A DNA stretch of 64,000 nucleotides from Myxococcota bacterium. GTDB taxonomy: Bacteria; Myxococcota_A; Bradymonadia; UBA7976; UBA1532. Position numbers and translations under genes: made by a program. Location of the stretch: assembly GCA_963169045.1 (NCBI GenBank), contig CAUJDF010000008.1, positions 1-64,000 on the forward strand, in the 5' to 3' direction. Every line of letters begins with the position of its first letter. Positions within the stretch are counted from its first letter, which is position 1. Under the pieces are notes generated by a model. It was not told the origin of the DNA and ran no database searches. It saw nothing but the letters and a program-made list of their open reading frames with translations. Shown here piece after piece: positions 1-5,865 of the stretch.

Positions 1-1985
1 AGGTCGACCTCGTCTACATCGACCCGCCGTTCATGGTGAACAACGACTTCCGCGCCGACAACGCCATCGACATCGAGCTCGACGGCGACGAGGGCGTGCA
101 GGCGCGCAAGGAGCCGTCGCTCGTCGAGATCCTCGCGTACAAGGACACGTGGCGGCAGGGCCTCGACAGCTTCCTGTCGATGTTGCGACGCCGGCTCGAG
201 CTGCTGAAGGAGCTGCTCGCGCCGACCGGGAGCATCTACGTCCATCTCGACTGGCATGCGGTGCACTATGTGAAGGTGCTGATGGACGAGGTGTTCGGCT
301 ACGAGAACTTCGTCAACGAGATCGTGTGGAAGCGCACGTCCTCGCGCTCGGGGACAGAGGGTGCGAACCATGTTCACGATGTGCTTCTCAGCTTCGGAAT
401 GGGGGCGCAACCGTGGTTCCAGCAGATCATGACGCCCTACGAAGCGGCGTACGTGCGACAGCATTACGGCCTGAGCGACGATCATGGCCGCTACCAGACG
501 ATCACACTTACCGCTCCGGGCACCCGAAACGGCGAGACCGGGCGTCCGTGGCGAGGCTTCGACCCGAATCGCATCGGCAGGCATTGGGCATACACGCACG
601 GCGAGCTCGATAGACTCGATGCGACCGGCATGATCGCGTGGTCGCAGACAGGCGGCCAACCGCGGCTCAAGCAGTACCTCGGCGCGATGGACGGGGTTGC
701 CCTGCAGTCGATCTGGACAGACATCCCGGCGGTCAACTCACAGGCCGTTGAGCGCCTCGGCTACCCGACTCAGAAGCCCGTCGCCCTTCTCGAGCGCATC
801 ATCACCGCCTCGTGCCCGCCCGGCGGCCTCGTCCTCGACTGCTTCATGGGCAGCGGCACCACCTGCGAAGCCGCCGAGCGCCTCGGCCGCCGCTTCATCG
901 GCATCGACAACGGCAAGTACGCGGTCCACCTCGCCCGCAAGCGCCTCATCCAGCTCCACGGCCAGCCGCGCCCGCCCGAGAAGGCGCAGCACGACTACGT
1001 CGAGTGCGAGCACTGCAAGAACATCGAGCGCAAGGAGAAGCGGCAGCGGTCCCCGGGGCCGTTCGACGTGCGCCCGTTCACCGTCGAGAACATGGGCGTC
1101 TACCAGCGCGCCGAGCAGTGGCAGGACTTCCAAACGGAAGCGAGCGGATACCGCAGCGAAATGATCAAGGTGTTCGGCGGCGAGCCCGTCGACCACTCGA
1201 CGTTCCTGCATGGCTTCAAGGGCGCGAGCTGGGTCCACGTCGGCCCGCTGGACGGCGCGATCTCTTCGCCGCAGGTCTGGTCGATCGCCCGGGCCGCCCG
1301 CGACACGCACCGCAAGGCGGTCACGATCCTCTCCGCCGACTTCGACACGCTGTCCGGCAGCGAGAAGGACGACATCAAGGACGCGCTCGGCGTCTCGGTC
1401 ACCGTCCGCGTCATCCCGCAGAGCGCGATTGACGAGGTGCGGCGCCGCATCGAGCTGGCCCGGAAGTCCGGCGAGGCGATCGAGTCGATGGCGATCCCGG
1501 CGTTCTACGCGCCGCTCTCGATCCGCCTCGAAGCGGCGACCGACGGCCGCCTCGTCCGCCTCGACCTCGCCCGCTGCGAGATCGACATCGAGTCGTTCCT
1601 CACGAGCCAGCAGCCGGCGCTCAAGCCGATCACCGACAAGATGAGCGCCGCCGCGAAGAAGCGCGCCCAGGCCGAGGCGGACAAGTGGACCGCGCGCCAG
1701 AAGGCGCTGCACGGCTGGCTCGACAAGGCGGACACCTGGAAGAAGTTCATCGACTTCTGGGCGATCGACTGGGACTACGGCCGCCGCGTCGGGCTCGACG
1801 GCAAGCCGATCTTCGTCACCGACTGGCAGAGCTTCCGGGTGCGCAAGAGCAAGAGCCAGGTCGAGGACCTCGTCTTCACGGCCGAGTTTCGCTACGCCGA
1901 GCCCGGCCACTACCGCGTGGCCGCGCGCGTCACCGACGTGTTCGGGAACGACGGCATCGCGACCGTGAACGTGGAGGTGCGCTGA
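1..1985 (+). CDS. Type III-like site-specific DNA methyltransferase (Mod), 5' end outside window
   Basis: Adenine- or cytosine-N4 DNA methyltransferase of the beta class, expected to modify the sites cut by the downstream Res protein. The reading frame is open from base 3 and starts with motif IV, VYIDPPF, so the true start lies left of the window; the ATG at 33 is internal. The SAM-binding motif I follows much later (FMGSGTT, about 280 codons in) after YPTQKPV, the order typical of type III Mod proteins. A CEHC pair follows at about nt 1008-1020. The C-terminal half is not recognised except for its last 40 residues, which read like a PKD/Ig beta-sandwich (EPGHYRVAARVTDVFGND). The stop codon overlaps the Res start (TGATG), so the two are translationally coupled. 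Family assignment is firm; target sequence is unknown. Confidence 0.9.
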   Translation, partial: VDLVYIDPPFMVNNDFRADNAIDIELDGDEGVQARKEPSLVEILAYKDTWRQGLDSFLSMLRRRLELLKELLAPTGSIYVHLDWHAVHYVKVLMDEVFGYENFVNEIVWKRTSSRSGTEGANHVHDVLLSFGMGAQPWFQQIMTPYEAAYVRQHYGLSDDHGRYQTITLTAPGTRNGETGRPWRGFDPNRIGRHWAYTHGELDRLDATGMIAWSQTGGQPRLKQYLGAMDGVALQSIWTDIPAVNSQAVERLGYPTQKPVALLERIITASCPPGGLVLDCFMGSGTTCEAAERLGRRFIGIDNGKYAVHLARKRLIQLHGQPRPPEKAQHDYVECEHCKNIERKEKRQRSPGPFDVRPFTVENMGVYQRAEQWQDFQTEASGYRSEMIKVFGGEPVDHSTFLHGFKGASWVHVGPLDGAISSPQVWSIARAARDTHRKAVTILSADFDTLSGSEKDDIKDALGVSVTVRVIPQSAIDEVRRRIELARKSGEAIESMAIPAFYAPLSIRLEAATDGRLVRLDLARCEIDIESFLTSQQPALKPITDKMSAAAKKRAQAEADKWTARQKALHGWLDKADTWKKFIDFWAIDWDYGRRVGLDGKPIFVTDWQSFRVRKSKSQVEDLVFTAEFRYAEPGHYRVAARVTDVFGNDGIATVNVEVR

Positions 1986-4900
1986 TGGGCCAGGAGCAGC
2001 TCTTCGGCCGGCGCGAGGCGCACGGGCATCCGCGCGTCATCGCCGAGATCCGGCGCATGGTGGACGCGTGGCGCGGCTTCGAGCTGGGCGCGGCCGCCGA
2101 CGCGTACCCGGACGTCGAGCCGCGCTACGCGCCGGTCGTCCCGGGCGAGCACGAGACGAGCGCGACGACCCAGACGCTGCTGCGCCACTGGTTCCGGCGC
2201 GAGCCGCACGCCGTCCGCGCGAGCAACGCGGCGCAGACGATGCTGTTCAGGTACTGGCCGCACCAGCGCCGGCTCGTGGAGACGTTCGTCTACCTGTACG
2301 AGGTCCGGCGCGTGCGCCGCACCGAGGACCTGTGGCGGCTCGTCGGCGAGGAGCCGCTGACGACGCAGCGCGACCCGTGGACGAAGCTCGGCGGCCAGCT
2401 CGCGACCGGCTCCGGCAAGACCAAGATGATGAGCCTCGTCATCGCGTGGTCCTACCTGAACGCGAAGCTCGAAGGGCCGCAGCACCTCGGCCTCGGCCAG
2501 CACGCGCTCCTGATCGCGCCGGGCCTGTTCGTGCGCGACCGCCTGTTCCAGGACTTCGACCCGAGCCACGGCCTGAGCCCCGAGGAGCGCGCGACCGGCG
2601 CGACGAAGTCTTCGGTGTTCTTCGCCGATCCGGTCGTCCCGCCGGCGTTCGAGCAGGTGTGGGACGTCAGCGTGTACGGCCCCGACGACTGCCCGCGGCA
2701 GCTCGACCCGGAGCGCGGCGCGCTCGTCGTGACCAACTACCACCAGCTCCTGCGGCTGCCCGAGGAGGCGGCGCCGGTCACCACCGGGCACCTCCACCAG
2801 ATGAAGATCCTGTTCGAGGACGACGAGCCGGCGCGGCTCGAGTCCGTCGAGACGCCGCTCGTGAAGCGCTTCGAGCGCTCGCGCGGCCTGCTCGTGCTCA
2901 ACGACGAGGCCCACCACGTCTGGGACGAGACCGGCCACGCGCGCTTCGAGGAGCGCGCTCGCGCCCGCGTGGAGGCGGAGGGCAGCGACGCCGCGACCGA
3001 GATGGCCTGGATCCGCTCCATCCGCCGCCTGCACGACAAGGTGGGCCGCGTCGGCCTGCAGGTCGACCTGTCGGCGACGCTGTTCGAGGAGCAGGGCGCG
3101 TCGAAGAAGCCGTCCGGGAAGAAGGCGGCGATCACGACGTTCAAGGGCGCCGAGCTGTTCCGGCACACCGTCGTCGACTACCCGCTGAGCGAGGCCATTC
3201 GCGACGGCATCGTAAAGCGGCCGCACCTCGAGCGCGTCGAGGTCACGAGCGGCGGCAAGGTCGAAGAGCTGGTGCGCGAGGGCCAGCCGAACGCGTGGGA
3301 GAAGTACCGCAACCTGCTCGTCACCGGCATCCAGCGCTGGAAGAAGGTGCGCGACGAGCTCCGCACCGAAGGCGACCGGCGCAAGCCGCTGCTGTTCATC
3401 CTGTGCAACGACCGGAACGAGGCGCGCGAGGTCGCCAACTACCTCGCGCACGGCCAGGCGACCCGGGAAGACATCCGCACGCCGCCCACCGGCTACCACG
3501 ACCCCGACGCGCCCGAGGGCGCGCCGCCGCTGTTCGTGGAGGACGGCCGCTCGACCGTGGTCGAGATCCACATCGGCCAGAAGGAGGAGTCGAACGAGGA
3601 GGCGTGGGAGGCGGTGCGCCGCGCCGTCAACGAGGTCGACCGCGACGAGATCCCCGACGGCAAGGGCGGCGTCGTCCCGAACCCGTACAACGTCGTGGTC
3701 AGCGTGATGATGCTCAAGGAGGGCTGGGACGTCCGCAACGTGAAGGTCATCGTGCCGCTGCGCCCCTGCGACTCGCGCACGCTGACCGAACAGACGCTCG
3801 GGCGCGGCCTGCGCAAGATGCACCCGCCGCTGCTCGACGACGACGGCGCCGCGACGCTCACCCCCGAGCACCTGTACGTGATCGAGCACCCGTCTTTCCG
3901 GGCGATCATCGACCAGATCTCGGACCTGGTGGACGTCATCGAGCCGGGGGAGCCGCCCCCGCCGCCGCAGTACCTGCCCATCCGGCCGCTCGAGGACGAC
4001 GCGGCGCGGGGCGCGCGCGACGTGCGCCTGCTGCGGTACGCCGGGCAGCGCGCCGTGAGCGCCGAGTGGCGCGGTCGGCTCGACGTGAATCGGCTGCCGC
4101 CGCTGCAGCCCGCGCTCCCCTGGATGGAGGAGGTGCCGGAGACCGAGATCCGGACGTGGCTCAAGGCGGCGCTCGTCCGCGGCGAGCAGGAGGGTCAGCA
4201 GTTCGTGCTGCCCGCCGGATCGTCCTTCCGCGACTTCGACCACGTGATCGAGACGGCGTACGCCCTGCCCATCCTGCGCGAGCTGCGCGCGAGCCACGTC
4301 CAGAAGAACGCGGTGAAGAGCGTCGTTCGCGAGTTCCTCGAGCGCCGCACGTTCAAGCTGCCCGCCGGCCTGCCGCTGTCGTTCGACCACGTCGCCGCGC
4401 ACGGCGCCGGGCGTATCGCGCTGGCGAACCTCGCCCGGCCGGACGTGATGGAGGGCGTGCGCAAGGCGCTGCTGCCGGTCGTCGCCGAGGCCCTCCAGGC
4501 CGAGCGTGCGACGCTGGAGCCGATCATGGTGGAGCGCCACGCGGCGGAGCTGCCGGCGTACCAGGCGCTCAAGAAGCACGTCTTCGCCGAGCCCGGGCGC
4601 ACGACCTTCCAGACGGCGGCGCTCGAGAACGAGGACGAGCGACGCGTGGCCATACTGCTGGACCGCGCGACGGACGTCACCGGCTGGGTCTACAACCATC
4701 GCAGCGGCGTGGGGTACGGCATCGACTACGCGTGGCAGGGCTTCTCGGCGCAGTACTTCCCCGACTTCGTCGCGCGAGCGAAGCTCGGCGCCCTCCACCA
4801 CAACGTCATCATCGAGGTGAAGGGCCGCCTCGACGACCGCGACCGCGCGAAGGCGCAGCGCGGCCGCGAGTACGCCGCGCTGCTCGCGGAGCACGACCCG

Positions 4901-5560
4901 CGCCGCGAGCCGTGGCACTACGTGATCCTCATCGAGAACGGCGACCTGAACCGCGCCGACATCGCGTGGTGGGAGGGCCGGTCGCGCCTCCGGATCGCCG
5001 ACCTGCTCGACCACCACGAGACGCTGCCGCTCGTGCCGACCGGCTTCCTCGGGGACGTGCGGTCGTTCGAGATCGCGCAGAGCGTGCCGGCGAGCGCCCG
5101 CCACAAGGAGGCGGTGCCGGTGCTGTCGCTGGCCGCCGCCGCGGGCCGCTTCGGCGGGACACAGGTGGTCGAGCCGCAGGAGGCGTGGGCGTGGCTGCCC
5201 CGGCCGCGCAAGCACGACACGCATCTGTTCGTCGCGCGGATCCAGGGCAGGAGCATGGAGCCGGGCGTACCCGATGGCAGCTGGTGCCTGTTCCGGGCCT
5301 TCCCGGCCGGCCGCGCCCCTTCCGCGTCGGCGCTCGACGGGCGGCGCGTCGTCGTCGGCATCGGCGAGGCGACGCTCGACGACGCCGCCTACGTGGTCAA
5401 GCGCTGGCGCGTCGCCGAAGCCGAGGCGGGCGACGACGGCGCCGTCGCGGTGAGGTCCGTCCGGCTCGTCTCCGACAACCGCGCCTTCGATGACATCGTC
5501 GTCACGCCGGCCGACGGCGAGGTGCGCGTCGTCGCCGAGCTCCTCGAGGTCGTCGGCTGA
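1985..5560 (+). CDS. Type III-like restriction helicase-nuclease (Res) with C-terminal S24/LexA-like domain
   Basis: ATP-driven restriction subunit of about 1191 residues. SF2 helicase motifs are visible: Walker A ATGSGKT (Lys145), DEAH at 307-310, and motif VI EQTLGRGLRK near 601-612. A PD-(D/E)xK nuclease signature follows, with Asp927 in FPDF and Glu944-Val-Lys946 in IIEVKGR. The last 130 or so residues are unusual for a Res subunit: VARIQGRSMEPGVPDGSW followed by YVVKRW, the Ser (1090) and Lys (1139) arrangement of LexA/UmuD-like S24 peptidases. The start was chosen at 1985 because it overlaps the Mod stop by one base; longer upstream frames overlap Mod. The S24-like domain may sense damage, regulate or self-cleave, but only the motif is seen. 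Confidence 0.9.
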   Translation: MGQEQLFGRREAHGHPRVIAEIRRMVDAWRGFELGAAADAYPDVEPRYAPVVPGEHETSATTQTLLRHWFRREPHAVRASNAAQTMLFRYWPHQRRLVETFVYLYEVRRVRRTEDLWRLVGEEPLTTQRDPWTKLGGQLATGSGKTKMMSLVIAWSYLNAKLEGPQHLGLGQHALLIAPGLFVRDRLFQDFDPSHGLSPEERATGATKSSVFFADPVVPPAFEQVWDVSVYGPDDCPRQLDPERGALVVTNYHQLLRLPEEAAPVTTGHLHQMKILFEDDEPARLESVETPLVKRFERSRGLLVLNDEAHHVWDETGHARFEERARARVEAEGSDAATEMAWIRSIRRLHDKVGRVGLQVDLSATLFEEQGASKKPSGKKAAITTFKGAELFRHTVVDYPLSEAIRDGIVKRPHLERVEVTSGGKVEELVREGQPNAWEKYRNLLVTGIQRWKKVRDELRTEGDRRKPLLFILCNDRNEAREVANYLAHGQATREDIRTPPTGYHDPDAPEGAPPLFVEDGRSTVVEIHIGQKEESNEEAWEAVRRAVNEVDRDEIPDGKGGVVPNPYNVVVSVMMLKEGWDVRNVKVIVPLRPCDSRTLTEQTLGRGLRKMHPPLLDDDGAATLTPEHLYVIEHPSFRAIIDQISDLVDVIEPGEPPPPPQYLPIRPLEDDAARGARDVRLLRYAGQRAVSAEWRGRLDVNRLPPLQPALPWMEEVPETEIRTWLKAALVRGEQEGQQFVLPAGSSFRDFDHVIETAYALPILRELRASHVQKNAVKSVVREFLERRTFKLPAGLPLSFDHVAAHGAGRIALANLARPDVMEGVRKALLPVVAEALQAERATLEPIMVERHAAELPAYQALKKHVFAEPGRTTFQTAALENEDERRVAILLDRATDVTGWVYNHRSGVGYGIDYAWQGFSAQYFPDFVARAKLGALHHNVIIEVKGRLDDRDRAKAQRGREYAALLAEHDPRREPWHYVILIENGDLNRADIAWWEGRSRLRIADLLDHHETLPLVPTGFLGDVRSFEIAQSVPASARHKEAVPVLSLAAAAGRFGGTQVVEPQEAWAWLPRPRKHDTHLFVARIQGRSMEPGVPDGSWCLFRAFPAGRAPSASALDGRRVVVGIGEATLDDAAYVVKRWRVAEAEAGDDGAVAVRSVRLVSDNRAFDDIVVTPADGEVRVVAELLEVVG

Positions 5561-5622
5561 CCGCGGGCGGCTTGACGCCCCCGCCTTCGACCACCAGATC
5601 GGAACCACAATGGAGGCAGACG

Positions 5623-5865
5623 ATGCGCAACATCACGCTCAAGCAGATCCCGGACGAGCTCTACGAACGCCTTCGCGAGCGCGCCGACCGGAACCACCGC
5701 AGCCTGAACGGCGAGGTCATCGCATGCCTCGAGATCGCGCTGGGCCGCCCGTCCCCCGACGTCGCGGGCGTCCTCGCGCAGGCCCGCCGCTTCCGCCAGC
5801 TGACCGCCGCGGCGCCGCTCACCGACGAAGTGTTCGAGCGGCTCGCGGGTGAAGGGCGGCCGTGA
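5623..5865 (+). CDS. Ribbon-helix-helix FitA/Arc-type antitoxin
   Basis: Small DNA-binding protein of 80 residues. The N-terminus MRNITLKQIPDELYERL begins a ribbon-helix-helix fold as in FitA-type antitoxins that pair with PIN-domain (VapC) toxins; the basic RSLNGEV turn follows. The C-terminal part with RRFRQLTAAAPLTDEV resembles toxin-neutralising tails. The ATG at 5623 was chosen over an earlier in-frame ATG at 5572 because a purine-rich GGAGGCAGA lies just upstream and the RHH strand starts directly after it. It lies 62 bases downstream of Res. The expected toxin gene follows with a GTG overlapping the stop region but is reduced to a stub, so this may be an orphan antitoxin. Confidence 0.8.
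   Translation: MRNITLKQIPDELYERLRERADRNHRSLNGEVIACLEIALGRPSPDVAGVLAQARRFRQLTAAAPLTDEVFERLAGEGRP

Follow-up and report, generated by a model that had tools for sequence, protein, structure and literature searches.

The window, that is the whole stretch of 64,000 nucleotides that was analysed, begins inside a DNA methyltransferase gene (Mod), which is followed directly by the gene of a helicase-nuclease (Res). The features of this locus, all on the + strand, are listed below.

1 to 1985, + strand: Mod, the N6/N4 DNA methyltransferase partner (PF01555, 5.9e-38, matched from profile position 25 of 221)
1985 to 5560, + strand: Res, a helicase-nuclease of 1191 amino acids with a C-terminal S24 module (open reading frame)
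2408 to 3814, + strand: SF2 helicase motifs of Res (GSGKT 2408-2422, DEAH 2903-2914, SAT 3071-3079, GRGLR 3800-3814)
4760 to 4825, + strand: PD-(D/E)xK nuclease motif, D927 (PDF)...E944-V-K946 (invariance in homologues, AlphaFold2 model)
5114 to 5557, + strand: S24/LexA-like module, residues 1044-1191, predicted to be self-cleaving (PF00717, structure, alignment of 114 domains)
5141 to 5146, + strand: predicted scissile bond between A1053 and G1054 (LSLAAAA/GRF; Ala before and Gly after the bond are conserved in relatives)
5252 to 5254, + strand: predicted catalytic Ser1090 (GRSM; Ser in 114/114 domains)
5399 to 5401, + strand: predicted catalytic Lys1139 (YVVKRW; Lys in 114/114 domains)

The 5' end of Mod is missing. 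Because the frame is open to the start of the contig and VDLVYIDPPF is read in frame upstream of the ATG at 33, the contig starts inside the gene, and this ATG is an assembly artefact and not the true start. The homologue of Mod in another locus (L121) has 778 amino acids. The stop codon of Mod and the ATG of Res overlap by one base (TGATG). Directly 3' of Res, at 5572-5865, there is a gene for a FitA-like ribbon-helix-helix antitoxin (PF22513, 1.9e-11); no obvious toxin partner for it was seen among the short frames downstream.

The helicase motifs of Res (GSGKT at residues 142-146, DEAH at 307-310, SAT at 363-365 and GRGLR at 606-610) are invariant in alignment A4. The nuclease motif consists of PDF 926-928 and EVKG 944-947, and its D927, E944 and K946 are invariant in eight homologues. 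The helicase and nuclease motifs had been noted earlier from the sequence alone, and this is borne out. The region preceding the S24 module has a pLDDT of 77 in the AlphaFold2 model, and the best PDB matches to the nuclease-region model, weak as they are (E 0.03-0.1), include many PD-(D/E)xK nucleases (among them XisH, Cap4, BstEII, TnsA and R2).

Mod and Res are adjacent in one operon and Res combines a helicase with a PD-(D/E)xK nuclease, which is the type III organisation. The sequence-only reading had called Res "type III-like", and with respect to gene layout and motifs this can be kept, but as a likeness only: Res stays under the cut-offs of the type III Res models, with 20.6 bits against 22.5 for ResIII (PF04851, Pfam) and 17.4 against 564 for PRK15483. 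The nearest curated family is BPTD_3080 (NF046055), for which Res scores 243.8 bits against a cut-off of 800. Judged by these scores, Res is a sister family of BPTD_3080, related to it without being a member.

The C-terminus of Res is a real S24/LexA domain with a Ser-Lys dyad. In full-length Res the Peptidase_S24 profile (PF00717) matches residues 1051-1185 with 1.6e-7 and 31.5 bits, above the Pfam cut-off of 23.3, and the match improves to 1.2e-9 when the C-terminal 162 amino acids are searched alone. The motifs of the module are VPVLSLAAAAG (1044-1054), GRSM (1088-1091) and VVKRW (1137-1141). Ser1090 (in GRSMEP) and Lys1139 (in YVVKRW) had been proposed earlier as the dyad of an S24 repressor-like domain, and they are found at exactly these residue numbers. 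The proposal that the domain makes up the last 130 residues was right as to its C-terminal placement and too short as to its length, which is about 148 residues (1044-1191). It also lacked the third defining S24 element, the Ala-Gly site. In Res this is A1053-G1054, 36 residues before Ser1090, in the context VPVLSLAAAAGRFG; at the corresponding place LexA of the same genome has VLGKVAAGAPIL. When the window, translated in six frames, was searched for Ala-Gly, then GxSM, then [TV]VK at S24 spacing, a single occurrence was found; of 2000 shuffles of Res, 0 contained this pattern.

Since a sequence search of the S24 domain against the PDB gave no match, structure comparison was used. The AlphaFold2 model of the module (built on a 55-row alignment of domains) has a pLDDT of 88.4 and a pTM of 0.83. 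Its best 28 PDB matches in Foldseek are all LexA or lambda CI, some of them RecA-bound, with probability 1.00 and TM of 0.39-0.58 on the query. The S24 fold, on which the earlier proposal depended, is therefore present in the predicted structure. The domain is left unnamed by the PADLOC and NCBIfam models. Four closely related Res proteins (58-61% identity) carry an in-frame S24 domain as well. A chance resemblance or a wrongly joined frame is ruled out by these four proteins together with the Pfam score and the structure, and we give it practically no credence.

How constant are the residues on which self-cleavage would depend? In an alignment of 114 domains, the mean column identity is only 41%, against which the Ser, the Met after it, the Gly two positions before it and the Lys are each present in 114/114. 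Where the cleavage site is covered, P1 is Ala in 108 of 110 domains, P2 is Ala in 104, P1' is Gly in 105, and at P3 all 110 have Ala, Ile, Val, Leu or Phe. Gly and Ser are mostly 34-39 residues apart, and the spacing of Ser and Lys is mostly 45. In the 31 domains that came from the HMM alone, a subset without the bias of the DNA pattern search, Gly, Ser and Lys are each present in 31/31.

Variants of the site exist. Among the four nearest Res homologues there is one with Cys-Gly, which is also the cleavage site of UmuD. Ala-Thr takes the place of Ala-Gly, with Ser and Lys kept, in four domains of the set of 114, mostly from Omnitrophota, and it occurs also in two type III Res proteins, L147 and L148 (the Ala-Thr loci are L147:5271-8453, L148:4896-8441, L059, L063, L079 and L104). 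At L157:3-3152 and L158:65-2713 (minus strand), an S24-like module is N-terminal in frames of 883-1050 amino acids that have no Pfam match, and its site reads AAAAS. The Ala-Thr and AAAAS variants may not be cleaved, or may be cleaved at another site. It can be imagined from them that the module does not cleave at all and serves for dimerisation or as a dock for RecA; LexA-type C-terminal domains do dimerise. However, if the module were a mere dock, some lineages should have lost the dyad, whereas Ser and Lys are kept in every domain of the alignment and Ala-Gly in most. We consider a non-cleaving role quite improbable.

The module is dispensable for the enzyme core. In genome G215 a homologous Mod-Res pair lacks S24, and its Res has a different, unrelated end, so that S24 cannot be an essential part of Res. 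The genome of the window encodes a second Res-S24 (L006, 1247 amino acids) with the same C-terminal module. With 846 bits for BPTD_3080, where the cut-off is 800, this protein is a member of the family; S24 follows beyond residue 1042, where the match to the family stops. The arrangement is similar in L112, a type I HsdR whose operon also encodes HsdM and HsdS: its residues 19-1034 match the HsdR profile over the full length (1139 bits), and S24 comes next. By these profile boundaries, the module lies beyond a complete canonical enzyme in both HsdR and BPTD_3080 members.

In a tree of the S24 domains, a quick tree whose deep branches are weak, ten enzyme groups show 19 partner changes, compared with a minimum of 9 and a shuffled mean of 51. 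Some groups of mixed composition are well supported, for example those that unite an HsdR and a HATPase protein (SH-aLRT 100) or L006 and SLFN-g3 domains (100). As the tree mixes enzyme types, the module has moved between enzymes several times. A module that merely descended with each enzyme type is rejected by the same tree (19 changes against 9).

The sequence-only reading spoke of a minor architecture, and in this respect it has to be corrected. The module is widespread: it is present in 44 of 379 Myxococcota genomes, and among the 52 Myxococcota matches listed 31 are in open frames of at least 800 residues. A scan of one genome per species gave 231 relatives, of which 80 were kept, from at least a dozen phyla. 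Partner enzymes, assigned with Pfam and PADLOC on representatives, are of many types. Besides type III-like Res and type I HsdR, they include type IIG/ISP enzymes (L042 and L040), DUF3427 and HIT-ResIII helicases (L106 and L093), Druantia DruE (L058 at 370 bits; L154-L156 by similarity), SLFN-g3/DUF2075 helicases (a cluster of 40 loci) and a HATPase protein with a possible nuclease region (L131). The three relatives on viral contigs are all restriction enzymes, one HsdR-like by sequence (L146) and two of the ResIII type (L147 and L148). The plasmid collection yielded one relative only, an SLFN-g3 helicase of Halomonas. The same S24 subfamily is also seen, recognised by eye, on small XRE-like helix-turn-helix repressors (L026, L134 and L135); XRE-type repressors are the classic home of the S24 switch.

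What might such a module do on a restriction enzyme? S24/LexA-like proteins cut themselves at Ala-Gly with a Ser-Lys dyad, usually when stimulated by a RecA filament, and the ends so produced are degrons (PMC7101444) for Clp, Lon or FtsH (PMC7101444, PMC10584840); cleaved LexA displays latent ClpX signals (PMC10584840). After DNA damage, ClpXP digests HsdR and thereby suppresses type IA/IB restriction (PMC12707154). The genome of the window encodes LexA, RecA (twice) and ClpX (twice), and the conserved Ala-Ala before the predicted cut resembles, by analogy, the degrons of Clp, Lon and FtsH. Because of this S24 biology, the ClpXP-HsdR precedent, the Ala-Ala end and the presence of LexA, RecA and ClpX in the genome, we read the module as built-in restriction alleviation.

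The following scheme can be suggested. In an undamaged cell, Res would be intact and would restrict. Upon damage to the host chromosome, or after Res itself has cut it, RecA-coated single-stranded DNA would stimulate self-cleavage of the S24 domain between Ala1053 and Gly1054, Ser1090 serving as the nucleophile and Lys1139 as the base. The helicase-nuclease would be left with a new C-terminus, ...LSLAAAA, which has a likeness to ssrA- and LexA-type ClpX tags. Recognition of this end by ClpX would then lead to unfolding or degradation of the helicase-nuclease; exposure of a C-terminal ...AA tag is probably the route by which the enzyme is turned off. The outcome would be restriction alleviation encoded within the enzyme. 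What the computation shows is the fold, the dyad, the site with its conservation, the recurrence of the module on many enzymes and the fact that the enzyme core can do without it; we infer the cleavage, RecA as its trigger, the direction (off and not on) and the finishing role of ClpX. Of the readings considered, a self-cleaving switch linked to damage is the best, and it is strengthened by the Ala-Gly site, by the invariance of Ser and Lys in the 114 domains and by the HsdR inserts described below. That Res ends in a portable self-cleaving module of the LexA type, by which DNA damage turns off a DNA-cutting defence enzyme, seems to us an evenly balanced proposition. There are points against it. 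The variants in which Ser and Lys are kept beside Ala-Thr or AAAAS may not cleave, and a C-terminal tag could be removed without harm to the enzyme, the instability of the released helicase-nuclease being a prediction.

The same S24 domain could instead be an on switch. It would then keep the nuclease inactive until self-cleavage, induced by damage or by a phage, frees it in an active form of lower specificity, with degradation of phage DNA or death of the cell as the result. Many carriers of the module are defence effectors (Druantia DruE, SLFN-g3 helicases, DUF3427 helicases), and single-stranded DNA with RecA filaments can arise from phage infection too. However, Mod is retained beside a close Res homologue that has no S24, which suggests that the enzyme can be tolerated in the absence of an inhibitor, and in many carriers a modification partner already gives protection. 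A further argument comes from three EcoEI-type HsdR proteins (L052, L064 and L060), in which the module is inside the HSDR_N nuclease domain. It follows the N-terminal Glu-bearing segment with KSMVRTE (in L052) and precedes GRADYVL...AVIEAKR. The insert is absent from a cyanobacterial plasmid HsdR that is 71% identical to L052 downstream of the module (query residues 224-547), and also from an Aromatoleum HsdR. A self-cut at this place would separate the N-terminal segment from the D...ExK core and so break the nuclease. This favours, as far as the arrangement of the sequence goes, inactivation over activation, although the three proteins form one supported clade and so count as one insertion event, not three. 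With these points taken together we find an on switch unlikely, if still worth keeping in mind.

Even if the module cleaves itself, the trigger need not be RecA. The cut could be a response to, for example, the translocation or assembly of the enzyme on host DNA, or it could be slow and constitutive, in which case it would set the lifetime of the enzyme. IrvR of Streptococcus mutans is an S24 repressor that cleaves without RecA (PMC7101444), which by analogy speaks against simply assuming RecA dependence. ClpXP attacks EcoKI only while it is translocating on DNA (PMC12707154), and a cut coupled to translocation would fit this behaviour. Yet the nearest folds to the module are those of RecA-responsive proteins, and IrvR is, according to its authors, an exception among characterised members (PMC7101444). 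A trigger other than RecA appears to us rather unlikely.

Several known systems can be compared with damage-operated self-cleavage of Res. LexA, lambda CI and UmuD (S24, PF00717) share with it the fold, the Ser-Lys dyad, an Ala-Gly about 36 residues before the Ser and an alanine-rich C-terminus after cleavage, which in Res is predicted. They differ in the partner: in LexA and lambda CI it is a DNA-binding repressor domain and in UmuD a polymerase subunit, while here it is a restriction helicase-nuclease and elsewhere other defence enzymes. BPTD_3080 resembles Res in overall layout and has L006 as a member, but the family model ends before the S24 domain. In the alleviation of type IA/IB systems (EcoKI), unmodified or damaged host DNA likewise leads to the proteolytic loss of the restriction subunit (PMC12707154, PMC4231737). 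There the translocating complex triggers ClpXP without any self-cleaving domain, whereas here the enzyme would cut itself. In IrvR and HdiR, self-cleavage exposes a buried C-terminal degron for ClpXP (PMC7101444), as is predicted here; these proteins, however, are transcription repressors, and IrvR is RecA-independent.

No description of fusions of S24 with restriction enzymes was found in open-access PMC full text, and absence there is no proof of novelty; such fusions would be visible in domain listings to anyone looking. A broader suggestion is that DNA-cutting defence enzymes of almost all classes (types I, IIG/ISP and III, the DUF3427 type, Druantia and SLFN-g3) have repeatedly acquired one and the same mobile module of the LexA type, which would be a general restriction-alleviation switch, direct, post-translational, damage-responsive, bypassing transcription and undescribed before. 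We would put its chance of being correct at about a half. If true, a self-cleaving domain shared among unrelated defence enzymes would be a common answer, beyond the case of EcoKI and ClpXP, to the question of how bacteria protect their own DNA, when it is damaged or has newly lost its modification, from restriction enzymes and other nucleases, and it would tie anti-phage defence directly to the DNA-damage signal. The predictions are simple and precise and concern the exchange of a single serine, a single lysine and a single glycine. The module would also be a ready-made part for the control of nucleases.

A few of the loci have features of their own. Ahead of the ISP-type enzyme with S24 at L042:1271-4420 there is a protein that combines a PLD-nuclease with a helicase (RE_NgoFVII-like), which suggests a two-protein system. 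Beside the second Res-S24 of the genome of the window, at L006:8329-10232 (minus strand), an AAA_21/AAA_15 ATPase is paired with a DUF3226 protein, and the two may form another defence module. In Halomonas sp. PA16-9 (L005:5959-8426) the SLFN-g3 helicase and the S24 module are in different frames, and by its sequence this copy looks frameshifted. Finally, a frame of 766 residues at L102:2329-4626, upstream of an SLFN-g3-S24 protein, has towards its end a second, weaker match of the S24 type (30.9 bits), a possible case of tandem use of the module.
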